Shown here in pieces: positions 20,201-53,506 of a stretch of 60,130 nucleotides of DNA. This DNA comes from a virus, in IMG/VR virus record IMGVR_UViG_3300025108_000048, positions 1-60,130 of that record; one strand, given 5' to 3'. Positions within the stretch are counted from its first letter, which is position 1. Each line of letters starts with the position of its first letter. The notes beneath the pieces were generated by a model that made no database searches, had not been told where the DNA came from, and saw only the letters and a list, made by a program, of their open reading frames with translations. The position numbers and the translations under genes are program-made.

Positions 20201-23200
20201 AATAAGAATTACACCATTCACGTATGATACACAATTGTATGTCTCAAACCCTGGTGATCCATACGGTGACGCATACATACCCGCGGATTTAGATTGTTTA
20301 GATTTAAGTACGTTCGATTTTTATTGGGAGTCAACATATCTAACGGGAACTACGGAATGTGACCCTAAGGTTAAAGTTTACGGACCAAATACTTTCTATA
20401 CATTACCTGAAGATGAGGACGATTGTATCCTAATGGAGGATGTCTATTTCGAAGTGTCGGGTGTTACATTTGGTAATGAAGATACTATAGATGATGGAGA
20501 TCCATGTACTGATTGTCCACCATATAATACATCTTGGCCGTTAAACATATTCATAGATTGTGTTGGTGGGTATAATGAATCAATTAGTGGACATACGTAC
20601 ACAGTTGATCATATTTCAGGATGTACGTTTGTTGTTAATAATGTTAGAGAAAATGATGTCATTGACATCTCAATAACAGATGCGGCAAATTGCGATCAAA
20701 AAATAAGAATAGAGGGATTACAACAAAAGTTTGAATGGGACCCTGTAGATGGTGACGATGTTACTACATCAAGAAGTCATTATTTAGAATACTCATTTGA
20801 TACTTACGCTGATGGGGATAACCCTGATAGTAGTGAACCTCTTAATAGTCAATCTGGTATTACTTTCTGTGATAATTATTCAGGATATACTATACAACCT
20901 ATTGTACAATATAGACCTACGTTTGATTATGGTCTGAGACAAAACACTAAAGTTATAAAAGTAAATAATGGTGTTATACTTGACGAAAATACAACTTGGG
21001 ATCAAATACAAACCTATTTAGATGATAATACTTTAGAAAAAATAAACATTGAAAATGTTGTAATAGGTGATCAACTACTTTCAGGGGTATATAAAGATTG
21101 TCCTTTCTCATCTCAAGATTATAACGATGCGGTTATTAGTGGTTATTCGTTCTCTTATGATTATAAGGTCGTAACAGTTGAAAATAAAGACTGTTTAGGT
21201 TCTACTAAAATTAACAAGATAAATGAAAGATTTAGTTTTTTACCTAATACTAGATTATGGGTAATGACTAAAACAATGGAAGATGGAAGTCAGGGGGATA
21301 ATTGGAGATTTATTGAAAAGTATCCTGAAGAATTATATCCAAGACCTGATGATCCTACAGATCCTTGTTGTACTTATCAAGTTGGTTACTACGAAAGGGG
21401 AGACTTTATTTTTAACGAACACGGTTTTCCTATTGAAGTACTCAAGGTCGATTTAGACTACTGCGCAAGAGATTTGTTCTACCATTTAAATGTCACACAG
21501 AAAACAGATGCTAACGTTAGTTGTACTGAAGTAATATTATTTAATGGTGATTCTGAGGACTGTATATTAGTTGGACATGACGAACAGAAGTTCGAAAACA
21601 TGGACATGAAAATGCAACAATACTTCCAAGACAAGTTAGATTGTTCTGACATGCCGGACATAGATGACATTGAGAGGGATTTAACAGGATTAGATGATTG
21701 TAACACATTAAATGCGTTTAAAATTAAACACTTTGACACTGGGGAGATAAGATATACCGAAATAAACGATGACTTTGATATAGGAGATACGGTAAATATT
21801 GAATTTATTTACAGTGGTTCTTACAACGAAGAAATTAACTCAATTCAGAAACTATCACCGGGACAAAATTGTTGGGTTGTAATCTCTAAAGTTTATGCTA
21901 ATGTCATTGAATATTTGGCATCGGGCCCATGTGATGATGTTAGACGACCAGGTCCAAGCGCTACCCCAACTAACACACCAACACCAACACCTACAAGTAC
22001 TCCAACGAGCACACCTACAAGTACCCCAACTCCAACACCAACGAGCACACCTACGAGTACACCAACATCAACACCAACGAGTACACCAACAAGTACTCCT
22101 ACCCCAACACCTACAAGTACACCAACGAGCACTCCGACTAGCACTCCGACTAGCACTCCGACTAGTACTCCTACATCAACACCTACAAGTACTCCTACAC
22201 CCACACCTTCACCTACACCAAATTGTGACTTTGACATAGATATTGATGTCGTAACCCCTACACCAACACCTACAGAAAGTAGTACTCCTACACCCACACC
22301 TACACCAAATTGTGATTTCGATATTGATGTTGATGTTGTTACCCCTACTCCTACACCAACACCTTCACCCACACCAAATTGTGACTTTGATGTGGACATT
22401 GATTTAATAACTCCAACCCCAACACCCACTCCAAGTCCAACACCAGATTGTGACTTTGATATAGATATTGATGTAGTAACTCCAACACCTACAGAAAGTA
22501 GTACTCCTACACCAACGCCAACTCCAACTCCGAACTGTGATTTCGATATTGATGTAGACTTAATAACTCCTACACCTACCCCAAGCCCAACAGGTAGCCC
22601 AACCCCAACTCCAACTATTGATTGTGACTTTGACATAGATATTGATGTCGTAACCCCAACACCTACTCCAAGCCCAACAGGTAGCCCAACCCCTACACCT
22701 ACACCAGATTGTGATTTTGATATAGACGTTGATTTAGTTACTCCTACACCTAGCCCAACAAGTAGTCCAACACCTTCACCAACACCTACGATAGACTGTG
22801 ATTTCGATATTGATGTGGATTTAGTTACACCTACACCAACTCCTACACCAACAAGTAGTCCATCACCTACCCCAACACCAGATTGTGATTTTGATATAGA
22901 CGTTGATTTAGTTACTCCTACCCCAACAAGTACTAATATACCACCCACATCAACACCAACCCCTACACCTACACCAGATTGTGATTTCGATATTGATGTA
23001 GATTTAATAACTCCAACGCCTACCCCTACGGAAAGTAGTATTCCATCACCAACCCCTACACCTACACCAGATTGTGACTTTGATATAGACGTTGATGTCG
23101 TAACCCCTACACCAACACCAACAAGTAGTCCATCACCCACCCCAACAAACACACCAACTCCAACTCCGAACTGTGATTTCGATATTGATGTGGATTTAGT

Positions 23201-25046
23201 TACTCCTACACCTTCACCAACAAGTAGTCCTACACCAAGTCCTACCAACACTCCTACACCTTCACCAACGCCGAATTGTGATTTTGATATAGATGTGGAT
23301 TTGGTAACTCCAACACCAACACCTAGCCCAACAAGTAGTTCAACTCCAACACCTACAGAAAGTAGTACTCCTACACCCACCCCAACACCTAATTGTGATT
23401 TTGACATAGATGTGGATTTGGTTACTCCTACCCCAACACCTTCACCAAGCCCAACTAATACACCTACTAATACCCCAACTCCAAGTCCAACACCTAATTG
23501 TGATTTCGATATTGATGTTGATGTAGTTACACCAACCCCTACCCCAAGTCCAACGAGTACTCCGACTAACACGCCAACACCAAGTCCAACGAGTACTCCG
23601 ACTAATACGCCTACACCAAGTCCAACCCCTAACTGTGATTTTGACATAGATGTGGATTTGGTAACTCCAACACCAACAAGTACTCCAACTAACACACCAA
23701 CACCAACAAGTACTAACACACCTACACCAAGTCCTACTAACACACCTACACCTTCACCAACGCCGAATTGTGACTTTGATATTGATGTGGATGTCGTAAC
23801 ACCTACTCCTACACCTAGCCCAACAAGTACTAACACACCTACACCAAGTCCTACTAATACGCCTACACCAAGTCCAACCCCTAACTGTGATTTCGATATT
23901 GATATTGACGTGGTAACCCCTACACCAACACCTACTAACACACCAACACCAAGTCCAACTAATACCCCAACACCTTCACCAACAAGTAGTCCTACACCAA
24001 GTCCAACTAATACACCCACACCTACCCCTACACCGAATTGTGATTTCGATATAGACATTGATGTGGTAACCCCAACACCTACACCAAGTCCGAGTCCAAC
24101 CAACACACCAACACCTAGCCCAACTAACACACCTACACCTACACCTACACCGAATTGTGATTTTGATATTGATGTTGATGTAGTAACACCTACACCAACC
24201 CCGACAACTAGTCCTACACCTACACCAACAAGTAGCCCTACCCCTACACCAACAAGTAGTCCAACACCAAGCCCAACTAATACACCTACACCAACACCTA
24301 CACCTAACTGTGATTTCGACGTAGACGTTGATGTAGTTACACCAACTCCTACACCAAGCCCAACAAGTACTCCTACACCTACACCAAGTCCGAGTCCAAC
24401 TAACACACCAACGCCAAGTCCGACAAGTACCCCAACCAACACACCTACACCAAGCCCTACTAGTACTCCAACACCAACACCTACACCTAACTGTGATTTC
24501 GACGTAGACGTTGATGTGGTAACACCTACACCAACACCTACTCCAAGCCCAACACCTTCACCAACTCCATCACCCACACCAATAGATTGTCCTGCACCAT
24601 GTACGACAACAATAAACTCAGATCTATTCCAAACTTGGAACACTAACTTGGTTGGGTCCAACTTTAAAGAATTGGGTGGATATTGTAATGAAGTGAGAAA
24701 TAAGAGTGGTAATGTAGTATCAACGAATAGTGAAGAATGGACTTACGATACAAACACATGTATTGTTTACGTTTACTATGAAGGTAGTACTATGAGAAGG
24801 AGTTGTATTGGGGAGCATACATCACCCGTAGGGACTGAAGTAAGTTCTTTTGACCATACAGATGGTACCCTTACACCAACAGGTTCAAATAGGTTATTTG
24901 ATACTGATATAAGATTTATAGATAATGATAACAATGCAATAATAATAGTAACCGAGTGGGATTCCACATTAACATCATTATTACATGTTCACATTTTATG
25001 TGACTGTAGTTTTGAGGGGGATGTTACCGTTCATAATTTGAAATAA
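17241..25046 (+). CDS. Giant tail protein: P2 gpI-like domain plus 22-copy [10 protein letters not shown]/Thr-Pro array
   Basis: The 2601-aa protein is a composite. Residues about 1-150 are basic and disordered. Residues about 320-480 contain [16 protein letters not shown]-type helices and [20 protein letters not shown] followed by [14 protein letters not shown], which resembles the phage tail protein I / P2 gpI baseplate family. Residues about 800-1570 are Cys- and Asp-rich and unrecognised. From about residue 1574 a Thr/Pro/Ser linker begins, into which a ten-residue motif, (N/D)CDF-D(I/V)D(I/V)D, is inserted 22 times, starting at 22221 and ending near 24520. A terminal domain of about 150 residues with several cysteines closes the protein. 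The tail-tip domain suggests virion anchoring; the array may be a long stalk. Its biochemical role is unknown. Confidence 0.78.
21961..24590 (+). repeat. Thr/Pro linker with 22 [10 protein letters not shown]-type motifs
   Basis: Degenerate 6-9-nt units encoding TP, SP, STPT and NTPT alternate with 22 copies of a motif of about 30 nt encoding (N/D)CDF followed by D-(I/V)-D-(I/V)-D-(V/L)-(V/I). Spacing grows from about 23 to about 60 residues toward the 3' end. Protein sequence is strongly conserved, but synonymous codons vary between copies (TGTGACTTT, TGTGATTTC, and so on), so many copies are not recent DNA duplicates. Every copy has one cysteine and four to five acidic residues. Confidence 0.93.
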
Positions 25047-25064: not shown

Positions 25065-28000
25065 ATGGCAAGAATATTCGACATAAAAATAACATCAGGG
25101 ACTTCACACAGTCTCTATACGATATACTACGATCAAGTCGATGCTGCCAATATCGCAACAAGAGTGAGTACCTCATTACCTGCAACAGGTGTGACATATA
25201 ATGATTTAATAAGTGGTTCGGGAGTCACAGTTAGTGTCCCTAACAGTGCAACTTCAATACTACTATATAATAATTCATGTGTGATTGATGATGAAATTAT
25301 TTTACCAACCCCAACTCCATCACCTAGCCCAACAAGTACACCAACACCAACACCAACAAGTAGTCCTACACCAAGTCCTACACCAAGTCCAAGTCCAACA
25401 GAGACACCTACCCCAACACCATCACCGAGCCCAACAAGTACTCCAACTCCTAGTCCAACGACTAGTCCAACACCAACACCTACACCAAGTCCAACTCCAA
25501 ATTGTGATTTTGATATGGACATCAATGTGGTTACACCCACACCAACACCCACACCAAGCCCAACAAGTAGTCCAACACCTACACCTACAAGTACTCCGAC
25601 TCCAACACCAAGTCCGAGTCCAAGCCCAACAGAGACACCTACACCAACACCGAGTCCGACAACAAGTCCTACTCCAACTCCAACTAGTACACCAACACCT
25701 ACTCCAAGTCCAACACCAAATTGTGACTTTGACGTTGATGTCACCCTTAATACAAGACCCTCCATAATAGTACCTAATTTTTCTCAAACAGAAAACACGG
25801 CAACAGGAACTACAATAGGTAACTTAGTTGCAAATGATGATGAGGGAGGAACGTTTACGTGGGTATTTGAAGATACCGCAAGTTATCCTGATAATAATTC
25901 TTTCTCATTGACTAGTGGTGGGGTATTATCTAACGCGGAGGTTTTCAACCATGAGGTAAAAAGTTTATATACTTTATATGTTAAGGTCACCGATAACGGT
26001 GGATTAACAAATACAAGAGAATTTACGGTAGATATAGTCGATGTTAATGAAACACCATACGGTTTAACCTTAAGTAATAATTCGCAAAGAGAAAACACAC
26101 CAACGGGGACAACAATTGGTATTTTTTCGGGGTTAGATGTTGACAGTAACGAAACATTTACATACGCACTAACGGGTAGCGGTAATAATAATTCGGCGTT
26201 CGCCTTATCAAGTTCGGGTGTACTCAAAAATGCAATAGTTTTTAATTATGAGGTTAAAAACTCTTATAGTATTGAAGTGACGGTTACGGATAGTGGTAAT
26301 AACACTTATACGGATACATTTACAATTTCAGTACTTGACGTTAATGAATCACCAACAAATTTATCCTTATCAAGTAATAGTATTGCGGAAAATCAATCTA
26401 CAGGAACAACAATAGGTACTTTCAGTAGTACGGATGTTGATTCGGGAGATAGTCATTCTTATGAACTTGTTAGTGGTTTAGGAGATACTAATAATGGTTC
26501 ATTTACATTAACAAGTGGTGGTGTTCTAAAAAGTAAAGAAGTTTATAACTATGAAGGTAAGAACAGTTATTCTATAAGAGTAAAAACTACTGATTCGGGG
26601 GGATTAACCTACATAGGTATATTTACGATTTTGATTACAGATCTTAACGAAACCCCTTCTAACATAACACCATCAACAGTGTCGTTTCAAGAAAATCAAT
26701 CGACAGGAACAACAGTGACTACATTCACCGCCACCGATGTTGATGCGGGCGATACACATACTTTTGAATTAGTAAGTGGTGTTGGAGATACCAACAACGA
26801 TTCGTTTAGTTTGAATAGTAATGGTACTCTGACATCTAACGAGGTGTTTAACTACGAAGTTAAAAACTCGTATACAATAAGAGTCAAAGCAACAGATTCA
26901 GGTGATTTAACATACGAAAGATCAGTAACAATTAATATCACCAACGCAAACGAAGTACCCACAGATATAACTTTATTAGATAATAATATCCCTGAAAATA
27001 GTTCTACAGGTACTACGGTTGGTCAATTATCAACTACAGATCCTGATGCATCAAATACATTTACATATACATTAGTAAGTGGTGTAGGAGACACTAATAA
27101 CAGTTCATTTAAGATAAGTGGTAATAAGATTCAAAGTAGTGAAGTATTCAACTATGAAGTTAAGAACACTTATTCAGTTAGAGTAAGGTCAACAGATCAA
27201 GGAGGGTTATATAGAGAAGAATCGTTTACCATTAATGTAACTAATGTTAATGAAACTCCAACAAACATATCATTATCTAATTCATCTATTGATGAGAATG
27301 TGGCAACAGGGACCACTGTGGGGACACTATCAACTACAGACCCTGACGCAGGAAATACATTCACATATACATTAGTAAGTGGTGCGGGTGACACTAATAA
27401 CGGTTCGTTCTATATAGACGGAACAACCTTAAAAAGTAATCAAGTTTTTGATTATGAAACCAAGAATTCATACACAATAAGAGTAAGAACAACAGACCAA
27501 GGTGGATTATGGTATGAAAAGAAAATAACGATATCAATTACAAATATCAGTGTTTCAGGAACTGCGGATGTAACCAATATTACATGTAGCAATCTAAAGA
27601 ATGGTAGTATTGAGGTTACCTCAACTACAGGAGGTGATTCACCATATACATATTCAATTAACGGTACTAATTACCAAACATCAACGACATTTTCAAATCT
27701 CGACTCAGGAACCTACACAATTTATATAAAAGACGACAATGGTGAAATAGGTACTATAAGTAAAACAGTTACAAAACCATCCGCAATAACAATATCCGAC
27801 ACCCATACAGACCCAACATGTGATGGTGATTCTGATGGTACAATTACTTTCACCGTTGGTGGAGGAACAGGAACCAAAACATATACGTTAAATGGTGTGG
27901 CGATTACTAATCTTTCTCAAACAGGGTTGGATGAAGGCAACTACACTTTAGTTGTAACCGATGAAAATGGATGTACAAATTCAAGAACAGTGGTACTAAC

Positions 28001-31000
28001 TAAGTCAGCGATAACCTTATCGGTATCCATAACAAATACAATATGTAATGGATTACAATCGGGTGAAATTAGGATAACTAATATAGGTGGTGGTAATGGT
28101 GGTCCGTACAAGATAAAATTTGATGACGGAGAGTTTGAAGATGATAATGGGGCTAATCGTACAATAAGTAATTTATATGCGGGTACATACACAATAACAA
28201 TACAAGATGGGAGTTTCTGTGAGAGAGAATTCTCGGTAACAATAACAGAACCATCACAAGTATCATTTACATCAACACATACTGATCCAACATGTTGGGA
28301 CGGTTCGGATGGTGAAATAATTATAACGGCAACGGGAGGTAGTGCACCATATGAATACAAACTAAATAATCAGTGGTATCCTTCAGGGAACTTCACAGGG
28401 TTAACAACTGGAAATTATACATTAGACGTTAGAGATGTTAATTTATGTCAAACAACAGGATCAAGTAGTTTAACGTTATTAAAATCAGCACCTATAGTAA
28501 CGTGGTCATTTACAAATGTCACATGTAATGGGGCTGGTGATGGTACTATATCGGTGGCAAACCCATCTGGTGGAAACGGTGGAACATATCAGGTAAAACT
28601 TAATAAATTAGGTACCTATGTAGACCTACCAAACAATACTATTCAAGACTATACGTCATTAGCACCTGGTACACATACCATATTCATTAAAGATGGTGAG
28701 GGTTGTATAAAAACATACACACAAACCATAACACAAAATGCAGTGGTAGGTATATCTGTTTCAAACACAATGCCGACATGTAGATTTGATAGTGACGGTC
28801 AAATTGTTGTTACAGGTAGTGGTGGGACTGGGTCTTACACTTATAGTAAAGACGGTACTAATTATCAAACATCCAACACATTTTCAAACCTTTCAAAAGG
28901 AAGTTATACGTTATACGTTAAAGATACTAATGGTTGTGTGGTGAATACATCAACCACATTAGATAAAGCACAAGTAACGGCATCAATTTATTCTAATGCA
29001 CCTAACTGTCATAACGGTAGTGATGGTGATATTACATTGGCAGCAATTACGGGTGGAAACGGTGGACCATATCAGTTTAAATTTTCAAGTGGTAATTGGA
29101 CTAATTTTACTACACCAGTAACGTTTACAGGTAAATCGGGAGCAACACCTTATTATGTGTACGTTAGGGACAAAGTTGAGTGTGAAAATGAATATCAAAT
29201 AGTATTAAATAACCCACAAAACTTAGTAATAACCACATCGGTGACACATCCGACGTGTCGTGGAAATAGTGATGGCGAAATTGTAATCACATCTACTGGT
29301 GGTACAGGAACTAAATTATATTCAATAAATGGTGTTAATTATTTTACGTCAGGTACGTTCACAGGACAGACTGTAGGGACAAGAACAGCATATGTGAAAG
29401 ATAGTAATAACTGTATTACGACTAAGAGTGTTACATTAACAAAAACTGATCCTTCATTTAATGCGTCACTTGAACATGTTTCATGTAATGGTGGTACAGG
29501 AACAATAACAGTATCAAGTCCAACAGGTGGAAACGGTGGACCATACCAAGTTAAATTAGATAGTCAATCGTACATAAACTTTAATACAGGCACACCACCT
29601 GAATATGAATTCACAGACGCGTCTGTGGGTCCACATACTGTAACAATAAAAGATAAGGACGGATGTACTAAAGGTTATACATATATTATTACACAACCAC
29701 CGGTGGTCAATGTAACTACAAAAAGTGTTACTCACCCATCGTGTCGTAATTCTAATGATGGTTCGATAACATTTGAAGCAAGTGGAGGAACAGGATCACT
29801 AACATATACAATGAATGGGGTATCAACAACAGATCTCACATTCACAGGTTTAACCATAGGTGGGTACTCGTTTAGAGCGACAGACCAAAATGGTTGTTAT
29901 GACCAAGTTACGGTAATTCTTCAAAAAAGTGATGTTACCGCAACGGTATCATCATCAAACCCTACGTGTTATGGTGGTACAGGATCAATAACAGTGTCTA
30001 ACCCAATTGGTGGAAACGGTGGAACATATAGTTCTAAAATAGGTTCGGGAAGTTATTCTACAACATTCCCTAAAACATACAGTAATTTGAGTGGTGGTTC
30101 ACATACTATCACTGTTAGAGACGGTGATGGATGTACAAGAACATACACAAAAACAATAACAGTACCCACACAAGTTAGTTTTACCACAACATTAACACAC
30201 CCTTCATGTAGTGGAGATAATGATGGTGAAATAGTAATTAATGCAAGTGGGGGTAGTGGATCGTACACATATTCTTTAAATAACGGATTTAATTACCAAT
30301 CGAGTAATACTTTTTCTACTTTAAGTTCCGCTATCTATTTGATAAGAGTCAAAGATAGTGCTAACTGTGTTCGATCAGGAAGTGCACAACTAAATAAGAC
30401 CGCTCCAAACGCGACATTTACAACAAGTAGTGTAAGTTGTCATGGTGGTAGTGACGGTGAGATAACAGTGTCGAATCCAACAGGAGGTAACGGAGCAACA
30501 TATAGTTCTAAAATAGGGTCAGGAAGTTACACAACGACTTTCCCTAAAACATATACAGGTTTATCGGAAGGAAAAAGTACAATCACAATTAAAGATAAAG
30601 ACGGTTGTGAACAATCTTATCAGGTAACCATAACTGAACCTTTAGATGATACTGCAACAATAACATCATTTACCACAGGTGCTAATGGTGACATTACTGT
30701 TACATCTGCGGGTGGGACGTGGAATAAAACATATAGATTATATGAGGACACAACGTCTCCCTATACTAATAGTGGGGGTGTTTTAGTCGCAACTATCACA
30801 GGTGTGACAGCGGCAAATCATTCACAAACATTCAGTAGTTTACCTGAAGGGTATTATTATGTTGTAGTTACCGATGCAAACGGTTGTGTCTCAAGTACAT
30901 CAGAACAAAGTACATTTGCCGATGGTGATGACTGTAATTGTATAGAGGTTGGTGTTATTTCGAGTAAATTAACAAGCGGTGGTAATGATTTATACTACAT

Positions 31001-31244
31001 TAATAATGATTGTGAAAATGGGATGACTTCTGTAAACTTAAACAATTATTTAGCTGAGATTGGTGAAGACGAGGAAAGTAATATTTTTAAATTCTGTAGT
31101 CAGTCACCGTATAGTCATAGTTTTAAATATGGTTTAGCTGGTGAGACTTTCGATGGACCTCAAGGTGGGGGAATAACAGTAACACCTTTTGATGATCCAT
31201 GTACTAGTAACTCGGATTGTTCAAAAACCATTAAACCATTTTAA
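25065..31244 (+). CDS. Modular adhesin: Thr/Pro linkers, cadherin-like repeats and SprB-type repeats
   Basis: The 2059-aa protein starts with a domain of about 85 residues ([20 protein letters not shown]) that resembles the N-terminus of the gene at 34176. Next come Thr/Pro linkers holding two CDFD motifs (25500 and 25719). Six cadherin-like modules follow, each with an xENxxTGTTIG start and an ending such as VDVNETP. From about residue 840 there are roughly thirteen SprB-type modules of 70-80 residues. Their signature is a Cys before GxxDGxI, a GGxGxY segment, GTYTxxVxDxxGC and VTITxP. SprB repeats are named for the flavobacterial gliding adhesin. The C-terminal 130 residues are Cys-containing and unique. 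It is probably a tail-exposed host-binding fibre; the modules may have come from a Bacteroidota host. Confidence 0.85.
25306..25738 (+). repeat. Thr/Pro linker with two CDFD motifs
   Basis: The stretch encodes alternating TP/SP units and contains [11 protein letters not shown] and [10 protein letters not shown] motifs, the same element as in the preceding gene. The second copy has lost part of the acidic strand. Confidence 0.85.
25755..27555 (+). repeat. Six cadherin-like modules
   Basis: Six units of roughly 95-100 residues each open with a short strand, then E-N-x-x-T-G-T-T-(I/V)-(G/T). Each contains GDTNNxSFxL or a related segment, and V-F-N-Y-E-V-K-N-(S/T)-Y followed by a strand and D-x-G. 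Asp/Glu residues at module borders (DVNETP, NVNETP) fit calcium-binding cadherin linkers. Confidence 0.78.
27560..30650 (+). repeat. About thirteen SprB-type modules
   Basis: Each module starts with a Cys in a T-C or S-C dipeptide, followed by G-x-x-D-G-x-I, then G-G-x-G or GGNGG with a Tyr, and ends with G-x-Y-x-(L/V)-x-V-x-D-x-x-G-C. Alternate modules are more alike (GGNGG type versus GGTG type), suggesting that a two-module unit was duplicated. Confidence 0.82.
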
Positions 31245-50209: not shown

Positions 50210-51022
50210 ATGAACAAAAGCAACAGTTTCCTAAACACCGAAGAGATAAGTTTCTACCTTAAAGACGTAAAAAAAATACCAACCACCAACAACAAAAGAC
50301 TAAAAGAAATTATACATAGTCTTAAACAGAAAAACATAACAGAAAAAGAAAAAACGTCTTTACAACACGAACTTGTAGTTGGAAATCTAAGGTTTGTTAT
50401 TAGTGTTGCTAAACAGTTCTCAAATCAAGGGTTAGACTTACCCGATTTAATTTCAGAAGGTAATATTGGTATGATTAGGGCGTCTGAGGAATTCGACCCT
50501 AATAAAAAGGTCAGATTTATTTCTTATGCGGTTTGGTGGATAAGACAGGCAATTATGTCTTCCTTAAATGAGAACGCAAGAACTATAAGACTTCCATCTA
50601 ACATTATACAAGAATATCAGAAAACTAAAAAGATGTCATTTTCTGAAGACGATCCTGATTTTGTAGAAAAATATAACAAACAGGCTTCACAATATGTTCC
50701 AAAAACCGTAAGTTTAAGTAATCCGATTAATGAAGAAGGTGATCAATTAATTGACATTGTTGTCAATAAAGATTCTTTAAATCCTGAAAGTTACTTGGAA
50801 AATGAAAATGAAAGAAAGAAACATGTGAAGAACGCATTGTCAATACTAAACGATAAAGAGAGAACGATTATTGAGAAGTACTTTGGATTAAATGGGGTTC
50901 AATGTAATTTAGAAGACTTGGGTGAGGAGTTTGGATGTACCAAGGAGAGGATAAGACAAGTCAAGGAAAAGGCAATGAAAAAACTCAGAAATGAGAGTTT
51001 TACATTATTAAAATATTTATAA
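50210..51022 (+). CDS. RNA polymerase sigma factor (RpoD-like)
   Basis: The 270-aa protein has a sigma region 2 (about 58-130: GNLRFVISVAKQFSNQGLDL, DLISEGNIGMIRASEEFD, RFISYAVWWIRQAIMSSLNE, RTIRLPS). A short spacer with SLSNPINEEGDQLIDIV follows, then region 4 (about 209-262: DKERTIIEKYFGL, LEDLGEEFGCTKERIRQVKE). The compact layout resembles the primary sigma factor of Bacteroidota (about 287 aa) more than T4 gp55. It probably redirects host RNA polymerase; the TATTTATA boxes before structural genes are its likely targets, but this is inference. It is followed after 18 nt by an envelope gene. Confidence 0.93.
   Translation: MNKSNSFLNTEEISFYLKDVKKIPTTNNKRLKEIIHSLKQKNITEKEKTSLQHELVVGNLRFVISVAKQFSNQGLDLPDLISEGNIGMIRASEEFDPNKKVRFISYAVWWIRQAIMSSLNENARTIRLPSNIIQEYQKTKKMSFSEDDPDFVEKYNKQASQYVPKTVSLSNPINEEGDQLIDIVVNKDSLNPESYLENENERKKHVKNALSILNDKERTIIEKYFGLNGVQCNLEDLGEEFGCTKERIRQVKEKAMKKLRNESFTLLKYL
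51014..51021 (+). promoter_or_regulatory. Late-type promoter box TATTTATA
   Basis: TATTTATA spans the last codons of the sigma gene and lies 19 nt before the ATG at 51041, so the lysis/envelope genes can be read apart from the sigma gene. Confidence 0.5.
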
Positions 51023-51040: not shown

Positions 51041-51343
51041 ATGAAAAAATTTTTAGAAAAACATTTCGTAACAATCGTTTTCGTTATCTTAATCTTCACC
51101 TTTTTTAGAGGTTGTGGTGATAGTAGGGAAATGTCCGCATTAAAAAAAGAAATGATAGAGTTAAAGGACTTTAGTAAAGAACGAACTTATACTAAAGAAC
51201 AATTAGATTTAAGATTAAAAATCGAAGGATTAAAAAGTGAACACAGAATGATTCAGGCGACTGACAGAAAGATGTTCGATTTAAACAGACAAACTCAAAT
51301 AGAAAAAGAGTTAGAGTCATTACAAAGTGAACTTATTAAGTAA
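51041..51343 (+). CDS. Small membrane-anchored coiled-coil protein
   Basis: The 100-aa protein has an N-terminal transmembrane helix (about 8-23: HFVTIVFVILIFTFFRGCGD) followed by a charged helix with coiled-coil character to the end. The Cys right after the helix (RGC) parallels RNC in the gene at 49006. Position just before a membrane protein and an endolysin suggests a part in lysis or envelope attachment; no family is recognised. Confidence 0.65.
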   Translation: MKKFLEKHFVTIVFVILIFTFFRGCGDSREMSALKKEMIELKDFSKERTYTKEQLDLRLKIEGLKSEHRMIQATDRKMFDLNRQTQIEKELESLQSELIK

Positions 51344-52573
51344 ATGGGAAGTTGGTTAAGGAATAACTTCAAGTTATTAATTTATATTTCGTTTTTAGTA
51401 CCGATTATAACGGTGGCAATAGTATCTATATCTCACGTTACTGTGTGGTACGGGATATCTAATCCAATGTCTTGGGCATTGTATCTATCGATAGGTATTG
51501 AGATTGCGGCACTGTCGGCATTGGCCGCAATATCAGCACAAATGGGATCTAAAGTTTACGTACCCTTTGGTATCGTTACCTTAATACAATTTGTTGGTAA
51601 TATTTTCTTTGCGTTTGAATTCATTAAAATAGGTAACGAACAGTTTCTATCTTGGGTTGAATTAACAGGACCTATATTGGAATATGTTGGTATAGAACAA
51701 GGGGACCTACAATCACACAGAAGATTCTTGGCAATATTTGCGGGTGGTATGTTACCACTTATATCCTTATCGTTCTTACATATGTTAGTTAAGTTTAATG
51801 AGGAGAATGCAGAATCAAAAACTCAAGAAGGTGAAGACACTAAAAAAGTTATTGAAGAGGAAACTAAAATCAAACCTACTAACGAAGAATTAGATAAGTT
51901 ACAAGACCTACTAAACAAATTTAAACCAGAAGAAAGAGAAGAACATCTACAAACCATAATTGATAATGACCAAGAAATGGGATTATGGGATAATACTACT
52001 AACGATGGTTTAGAAGATGATGAAGTACCTCCTGAATGGTTAAGTGAGGGACCCGAACCTGAAGAACACGAGTATAATGATTTTGATACCACAATAGAAG
52101 AAGACGAGTGGGACGAAGATCATGCATTAGACATGGTAATGAATGATATGGTATCCGATTTATCACCTCGAGATATTTCAAAAATTGTAGAAGAATCAGA
52201 AGAAGTTATAGAAGAACCTATACAACCTATACCCAATAAAGTCTCCAATAGATATGAACAAAAAAGTGATTATTTAAGTAGAAGTACTGATTGGGATTCT
52301 AAAGAAAAGGAAGAAGAAGGTTTATTACCTGACACAGTGGAATCTGCGGAATTAGATCTACAAACGGGACAAATATCAACACCCGAACCAATTAAAGAGA
52401 TTAGTGTTGAGATTGATGAAAACCAATTTACCCCTAAAAATAATTTTGAGGTTGATGTGGAGGTTAAACCTTCACCTACCCCAACACCTACAAATCCCCC
52501 AAACCCAAACTTTGTTGTGGGAAAAACATTAAGTGAGGTACAGGATCAAACAGATTCTGAAAAAAAAAATTAG
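51344..52573 (+). CDS. Multi-pass membrane protein with long acidic tail (frame may continue by frameshift)
   Basis: The 409-aa protein has four likely transmembrane segments in the first 155 residues (about 10-30, 42-64, 74-92, 130-148). A Glu/Asp-rich cytoplasmic or virion-facing region follows (about 155-370), then a short Thr/Pro stretch ([15 protein letters not shown]). The stop comes right after a run of ten A. In the -1 frame the sequence remains open for another 121 codons and encodes more Thr/Pro linker of the same style. A holin role is possible from its place before the endolysin, but the length and acidic tail are unusual for holins. Confidence 0.72.
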   Translation: MGSWLRNNFKLLIYISFLVPIITVAIVSISHVTVWYGISNPMSWALYLSIGIEIAALSALAAISAQMGSKVYVPFGIVTLIQFVGNIFFAFEFIKIGNEQFLSWVELTGPILEYVGIEQGDLQSHRRFLAIFAGGMLPLISLSFLHMLVKFNEENAESKTQEGEDTKKVIEEETKIKPTNEELDKLQDLLNKFKPEEREEHLQTIIDNDQEMGLWDNTTNDGLEDDEVPPEWLSEGPEPEEHEYNDFDTTIEEDEWDEDHALDMVMNDMVSDLSPRDISKIVEESEEVIEEPIQPIPNKVSNRYEQKSDYLSRSTDWDSKEKEEEGLLPDTVESAELDLQTGQISTPEPIKEISVEIDENQFTPKNNFEVDVEVKPSPTPTPTNPPNPNFVVGKTLSEVQDQTDSEKKN

Positions 52574-52935
52574 AAAACCCACCTACAGAAGTCCCAATTC
52601 CAACATCGACATCGGTACCTTCTAATACACCCACACCTTACCCAACAAGTACTCCAATACCAACGAGTACATCAACACCTTACCCAACAAGTACTCCAAC
52701 ACAAACGAGTACTTCAACACCTTACCCAACAAGTACCTTAACACCCACACCAACAGAAAGTAGTACTCCTACACCGACAAGTACACCTACTCCAACCCCA
52801 ACCCCAACATTATTCGTTGACGACCTATATATGGAACCTGGGGTCGGGGTCGCACCACAAGAACCATATTTAATGGTGGGTTCCAAAGTAATCACAAGAA
52901 ATGTTGGAAATTCGAGACGTAGAAACAATAGATAG
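52559..52935 (+). other. A10 slippery run and -1 frame extension encoding a Thr/Pro tail
   Basis: Ten A (52560-52569) precede the TAG at 52571-52573. Slipping back one base gives KKLENPPTEVPIP and then 121 codons to the TAG at 52933-52935. These include three TPYPTST-type units and a terminal domain with LFVDDLYMEPG and a basic end (RNVGNSRRRNNR). The 328 nt after 52573 hold no other gene. The composition matches the Thr/Pro linkers of the tail proteins, so this is coding sequence. It may be reached by programmed frameshifting or transcript slippage, a real mutation may have cut it off, or a homopolymer sequencing error may be responsible. Confidence 0.7.
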
Positions 52936-53506
52936 AAAATCATTAAACCACGTTGGTCGCAAATATAAAAAAAGACAAATTCTTTTATATGACACTAAAC
53001 GTAGGATTGATGATTTTGTCGGTAAGATAAAATATCGAAAAGATGGTAAGTATGAGGACATACCTCATTTTATTGTTTCTAAAATGGGTGACATTTACCA
53101 AGTATTGGATATGGATTATTCTTCGGTTACGTTCGGTAACCACGAACTAGATAGAAAACAAATTAAAATTGCGGTTGAGAACTTAGGATGGTTACATAAA
53201 AACACCATAACGGGTTATTATAGTAATTGGATTGGAGACCCTCATCGAACTGAACCATTCATCAGGAGTTGGAGAGACAAATTTTATTGGGATCGTTACA
53301 CCGATCAACAAATGGAAAGTATTGTTAACCTATGTGAATACATTTGTGATCAGAAACAAATAGATAAAAGAGTGGTCCCCAGTCACGGTTATATAGAAAA
53401 GATAGATAAATTTAAGGGAATTGTATGTAAATCCAATTTTTCAAATATTTATACAGATATAAACCCTTCATTTAATTTTAAAAAATTTTTAGATGATGAA
53501 ATATAA
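52901..53506 (+). CDS. Endolysin: N-acetylmuramoyl-L-alanine amidase (amidase_2/PGRP type)
   Basis: The 201-aa protein has the amidase_2 landmarks: DIPHFIVSKMGDIYQV with His56, the glycine/asparagine segment TFGNHELD, RYTDQQMESIVNLCEYIC near 132-149 and PSHGYIEKIDKFKGIVCKSN with His162 and Cys176. These residues are likely zinc ligands. The enzyme would cut the amide bond between N-acetylmuramic acid and the stem peptide. No signal peptide is present, so a holin or similar is needed for export. The start overlaps the -1 extension of the upstream gene by 35 nt. Confidence 0.85.
   Translation: MLEIRDVETIDRKSLNHVGRKYKKRQILLYDTKRRIDDFVGKIKYRKDGKYEDIPHFIVSKMGDIYQVLDMDYSSVTFGNHELDRKQIKIAVENLGWLHKNTITGYYSNWIGDPHRTEPFIRSWRDKFYWDRYTDQQMESIVNLCEYICDQKQIDKRVVPSHGYIEKIDKFKGIVCKSNFSNIYTDINPSFNFKKFLDDEI

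Follow-up and report, generated by a model that had tools for sequence, protein, structure and literature searches.

Within the window, meaning the whole analysed stretch of 60,130 nucleotides from an IMG/VR virus record, the gene of a four-TM membrane protein stops directly behind a run of ten A, and the −1 frame stays open for another 121 codons. This raises the questions whether these codons are expressed as part of the protein and, if so, at which step the frame would be changed. The zero-frame codons over the run read GAA AAA AAA AAT TAG. The run, the stop right behind it and the open −1 frame, from which the first-pass annotation had started, were all found again in the window sequence. 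Without a frame shift, positions 52574–52900 would be non-coding ahead of the next ORF at 52901; this gap was confirmed as well, with a length of 327 nt instead of the 328 nt given before. The features of the locus are:

50210–51022, + strand: sigma-70 family factor (homology search)
51041–51343, + strand: protein of 100 aa adjoining the following ORF upstream; one TM segment is likely and, on visual inspection, a coiled coil is probable
51344–52573, + strand: zero-frame ORF, 409 aa, C-terminal end EKKN*
52541–52559, + strand: predicted RNA hairpin of 7 bp, CAGGAUC-AAACA-GAUUCUG (folding prediction)
52560–52569, + strand: putative slippage run A10 (read from the sequence; A9–A11 in 39 distinct sequences)
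52571–52573, + strand: zero-frame stop TAG right behind the run, ending the short product (at most four codons away in 39 of 39)
52570–52935, + strand: −1-frame tail of 121 codons with its stop at 52933–52935, a Thr/Pro linker followed by a conserved basic tip
52885–52932, + strand: conserved basic tip KVITRNVGNSRRRNNR, in the long product only, partially overlapping the next gene and common to continuous-frame relatives
52901–53506, + strand: downstream gene, 201 aa, Amidase_2/PGRP fold (Pfam PF01510; AlphaFold model with Z 16 to amidase endolysins)

The 409-aa protein has its four-TM domain at the N-terminus (approximately residues 7–151), followed by an acidic arm of about 255 aa which is probably disordered. 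An ORF similar to the upstream 100-aa protein lies at the equivalent place in the relatives that were inspected (L001, L003, L005, L006 and L010).

Relatives of the locus

Scans of viral contigs (IMG/VR) yielded, after removal of copies, 67 distinct loci including the window. These were divided into the classes SLIP (39), FUSED (4) and SHORT (22), with two truncated or odd loci (L028 and L088) standing outside the classes. In members of the SLIP class, to which the window belongs, the zero frame closes with an A run, which is an A9 in two, an A10 in 32 and an A11 in five of them, so that the run, for which a comparison of homologues had been proposed, proved to be conserved. The zero-frame stop lies 0–4 codons past the run in all 39 members, compared with 28% of positions further along. 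The −1 relation is the same in every member, and the −1 frame is open for about 150–450 nt past the zero-frame stop; in 38 of 39 members, L083 being the exception, it ends 32–41 nt inside the downstream gene (35 nt in the window). The 348 kb of sequence from these loci contain just one other run of A10 or longer on the + strand, and about a dozen runs of A9. Because of this rarity and the recurrence in 39 distinct sequences, the combination of A10 and −1 relation is not a matter of chance. Eleven of the other long A/T runs listed for the loci were inspected and lay at gene ends, between genes or in in-frame KKK codons, none of them with a productive −1 frame. In three members of the window's clade (L003:3597, L004:3656 and L016:1637) a neighbouring gene ends in an A9, encoding KKK or KKKK before the stop, likewise with no productive second frame seen.

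The four FUSED relatives (L010/L040, L027, L032 and L033/L093) have one continuous frame and no run, with the same C-terminal tip and the same overlap. Judged from these sequences, the tail belongs to the full-length protein, whose frame is uninterrupted in some of the relatives. Proteins of the SHORT class are shorter and lack the long tail; most have an end resembling KKVLSYxRRDA, with a comparable overlap, and the neighbouring amidase-fold gene is more diverged in this class. In a tree built from the four-TM domain the SHORT class forms one side of a supported branch, while the FUSED class requires four changes, at least two of which are forced by well-supported branches. The first-pass annotation had held that homologues with a continuous frame would speak against programmed slippage. 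Such homologues do exist in the four FUSED relatives, yet they do not refute slippage, since the run is retained in 38 further relatives, among which the continuous ones are scattered on the tree. Outside of these loci, a single scan of genome contigs for a cellular relative found none, and a search of a phage collection yielded one weak relative (LR756500, 26%).

Protein coding in the −1 frame

For the −1-frame tail up to the start of the next gene, the pooled dN/dS of 15 pairs of relatives is 0.29, whereas values of 1.38 and 1.02 are obtained when these sites are translated in the two alternative frames. The differences in the tail are distributed over the three codon positions as 188, 209 and 391, with third positions being the richest. 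Among close pairs of low divergence, L062–L063, L062–L149 and L089–L079 have values near or above 0.8. By this pattern of substitutions, the tail evolves as a protein in the −1 frame and under purifying selection. As a separate observation, the tails of L062, L063 and L149 exhibit a pS of only 0.04–0.09 right after their A runs, despite a diverged remainder of the gene; this near-absence of synonymous change may stem from recombination or from a further overlapping constraint.

The tail of the window, with 24% T, 21% P and a basic end, had been described as a Thr/Pro stalk with a basic tip. This description stands for the tip, which is conserved, but the stalk is limited to some lineages: the linker is freely variable, being rich in Thr/Pro in some clades, that of the window among them, and acidic in the rest. 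The tail end K..xRNVxNSxRRRxx is kept, with variation, in all members but L083 (4955–5190), the sole SLIP member whose −1 tail has no basic tip and stops ahead of the downstream gene. Part of the conservation of the tip may be explained by the gene start that it overlaps; the K..xR part of the tip precedes the ATG of the overlapping gene.

The hairpin and the proposed change of frame

In the window, the 3′ arm of the predicted hairpin terminates on the base preceding the run. Hairpin statistics were obtained from 34 upstream sequences that are less than 85% identical to one another. The 36 nt ahead of the run have a mean folding z of −2.07 (Stouffer −12.1 for the 34 sequences) and, when compared with random synonymous recoding for the same amino acids, a Stouffer value of −10.2, with 15 of 34 sequences individually below 0.05; as the 34 sequences are related, these Stouffer values overstate their independence. 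No comparable folding signal was found in windows further upstream or downstream. Windows of 30 nt have a mean energy of about −1.5 kcal/mol, which drops to −6.05 kcal/mol once their 3′ end lies at the edge of the run. In 31 of 34 sequences the predicted hairpin ends 0–3 nt from the run. A stem of at least 5 bp ending within 4 nt of the run is present at 91% of the sites, compared with 27% for other A5–8 runs and 28% for positions drawn at random from the loci. Double-sided compensatory pair changes occur among relatives with the stem in register, for example CG to TA between L037 and L036; close pairs weigh most in this respect, as the register of the stem between distant clades may coincide by chance. 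The abutting hairpin is weak or absent in L022, L072 and L165. By these folding predictions, the position of the hairpin at the run is conserved in most lineages, and the arrangement of A run and abutting hairpin is retained in at least 34 distinct phage sequences. The run, the hairpin, the frame relation and the coding tail are all present and all conserved.

We consider it highly probable, from the comparison of these sequences, that run and hairpin form a programmed transcriptional slippage site. The claim of the first-pass annotation that slippage at the A run yields two products from one gene gains strong support from the relatives. While an RNA polymerase copies the A10, the RNA–DNA hybrid would turn into an almost pure rA:dT hybrid which can slide without mismatches; its length is 9–10 bp according to PMC5009743, about the same as that of the run. 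The nascent hairpin just upstream would fold at the exit channel and pull the RNA, and a share of the transcripts would gain one A (or lose two). We infer both the polymerase as the slipping agent and the gain of one A as the direction: by re-pairing one base back in the sheared hybrid, the RNA would acquire an extra A, in agreement with the −1 frame seen throughout. Ordinary translation of slipped transcripts in the −1 frame would then produce a long membrane protein of about 532 aa with linker and basic tip. On unslipped transcripts translation would terminate directly after the run, leaving the 409-aa form that lacks the tip.

Such an anatomy, with a predicted hairpin adjoining the 5′ edge of the slip motif and a homopolymer of about hybrid length (9 or more; A9–A11 in all 39 members), matches by analogy hairpin-stimulated transcriptional slippage and not −1 ribosomal frameshifting. 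In an IS630-type insertion sequence of Roseiflexus, slippage is enabled by a nascent hairpin immediately 5′ of the motif, as outlined in PMC5009743. There, the slipped mRNA of the transposase (Penno et al., 2015, via PMC5009743) also joins two frames. However, the Roseiflexus motif is T5C5 with a deletion of 1 nt, whereas the phages have A9–A11, a net −1 frame (+1 or −2 nt) and a membrane protein gene. The tssM1 gene of Citrobacter rodentium also encodes an inner-membrane protein and has an A11 just before the stop; poly-A slippage was demonstrated experimentally, and both the truncated and the full-length form are needed at a ratio of 3–4:1 (PMC4256274). It differs in that its tail lies in the other frame and that it is a bacterial gene and not an element of a virus family; the proteins are unrelated as far as known, and the word hairpin is absent from that paper (PMC4256274).

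The alternative that survives best is −1 programmed ribosomal frameshifting on A_AAA_AAA/G within the run, by which the long product would be made with the upstream hairpin tuning the process; we regard it as unlikely. Every member does contain an in-frame A_AAA_AAA/G heptamer inside the run, yet seven A would be enough for this type of frameshifting and all 39 runs have 9–11. SD-like 4-mers occur 6–18 nt upstream of the run in 12 of 34 sequences against a background of 8%; Bacteroidia ribosomes, and with them those of the probable hosts, do not recognise SD sequences (PMC9976891). Phages of the lambda type use −1 frameshifting, as noted in PMC5009743, and the Roseiflexus hairpin promotes a deletion, whereas the productive change in the phages must be +1 or −2 nt. 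On the other side, a hairpin adjoining the slip site upstream attenuates −1 frameshifting by 70S ribosomes (Huang et al., PMC6321510). The usual downstream stimulator is missing, because folding in 100-nt downstream windows is at the coding background (mean z −0.70 vs −0.63 in pseudoknot-free folding). A folding signal first read from these windows (Stouffer −4.1) was dropped, as the mean for coding windows chosen at random is almost identical. Whether ribosome or polymerase slips had been left open in the first-pass annotation; the hairpin abutting the 5′ edge and the lack of a downstream signal favour the polymerase.

Three further explanations fare worse than ribosomal frameshifting. Phase variation, in which the run would change its length during DNA replication and thereby switch the tail on and off, is possible for poly-A tracts (PMC3711429). 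It appears very improbable here, as no near-identical group varies in run length and as it leaves the hairpin and the close stop unexplained. It is equally improbable that the tail constitutes a small gene of its own with an independent start: a tail-frame ATG is present in 13 of 34 tails, but it is absent in the other 21, its place is not conserved, and continuous-frame relatives have the tip as C-terminus of the membrane protein. Homopolymers are prone to sequencing error, but it is hardly credible that the gene is disabled or that the break in frame arose in sequencing or assembly: the arrangement recurs in 39 distinct sequences from many metagenomes, the run length is uniform in every near-identical group (e.g., A10 in all of 24 loci from about 12 contigs, most of them present twice), and the tail is under purifying selection.

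Transcriptional slippage at the run is also distinct from a known phage case of a short and a −1-extended product, the G/GT tail chaperone of phage lambda, which is ribosomal, is sited before the tape measure gene and concerns a different protein. No phage precedent was found in literature searches. On balance it appears probable that this phage lineage keeps a two-part device for RNA polymerase slippage, a poly-A run of hybrid length and an abutting hairpin that shears the hybrid, which inserts one A and sets both the ratio of the isoforms and the translation of the next gene. To our knowledge no earlier conserved hairpin-driven slippage element in DNA viruses has been described, and if the proposal is true, this would be the first. 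With about 34 divergent versions of hairpin and poly-A run, compensatory changes and four plain fusions, the rules of slippage would become testable. In addition, gene calls can be corrected, as a reading from the DNA only drops a conserved C-terminus in most of these phages and leaves a false gap.

Possible roles of the products and the probable host

The four-TM domain is modelled with an AlphaFold pLDDT of 77. No significant match of the protein was found in Pfam, PHROGs or PDB, including any holin family, nor of the model among solved structures; those predicted viral proteins to which it is significantly similar are uncharacterised. From hydropathy and charge, both ends of the membrane protein are expected to be cytoplasmic. 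The arrangement would most likely serve to set the ratio of the forms with and without the basic tip. As a second possibility, compatible with the first, translation of the downstream gene might be coupled to slippage, a reading prompted by the end of the long ORF, which in almost every member lies shortly after the start of the next gene. A similar situation is described for spa13/spa32 and mxiE of Shigella, where slippage adds about 112 aa overlapping the next gene and affects its expression; these are other genes in another organism, and the passage concerned mentions no hairpin (PMC5009743).

An Amidase_2/PGRP fold was recognised for the downstream protein by both Pfam and the AlphaFold model. 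In an alignment, D31 and S161 occupy its amidase zinc-binding His positions. Because Asp and Ser appear to replace these His residues in the window's class, a role as plain endolysin seems doubtful, and the protein is possibly PGRP-like and non-catalytic. Cys176, at the place of the third zinc ligand of the His/His/Cys set, is kept in 31 of 38 sequences, and SHORT-class relatives keep H31 in the alignment. A match of the amidase-fold protein to alphaRep was judged a chance similarity.

The genes of the window include a DnaB-like helicase, a ribonucleotide reductase and a baseplate wedge, the latter sharing 26% identity with its counterpart in Flavobacterium phage immuto. A 2059-aa protein (25065–31244) with 12 SprB repeats and six cadherin domains resembles gliding-motility adhesins of Bacteroidota. 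Of 16 contigs bearing relatives, six have a gene for bS21, a protein also encoded by freshwater Bacteroidetes phages (PMC9723584). Because of the immuto-like wedge, the SprB/cadherin protein and bS21, these large phages are likely to have a Bacteroidota host. A 922-codon open frame on the − strand (21893–24661) lies antisense to a 2601-aa ORF and is probably a by-product of the composition of that ORF.
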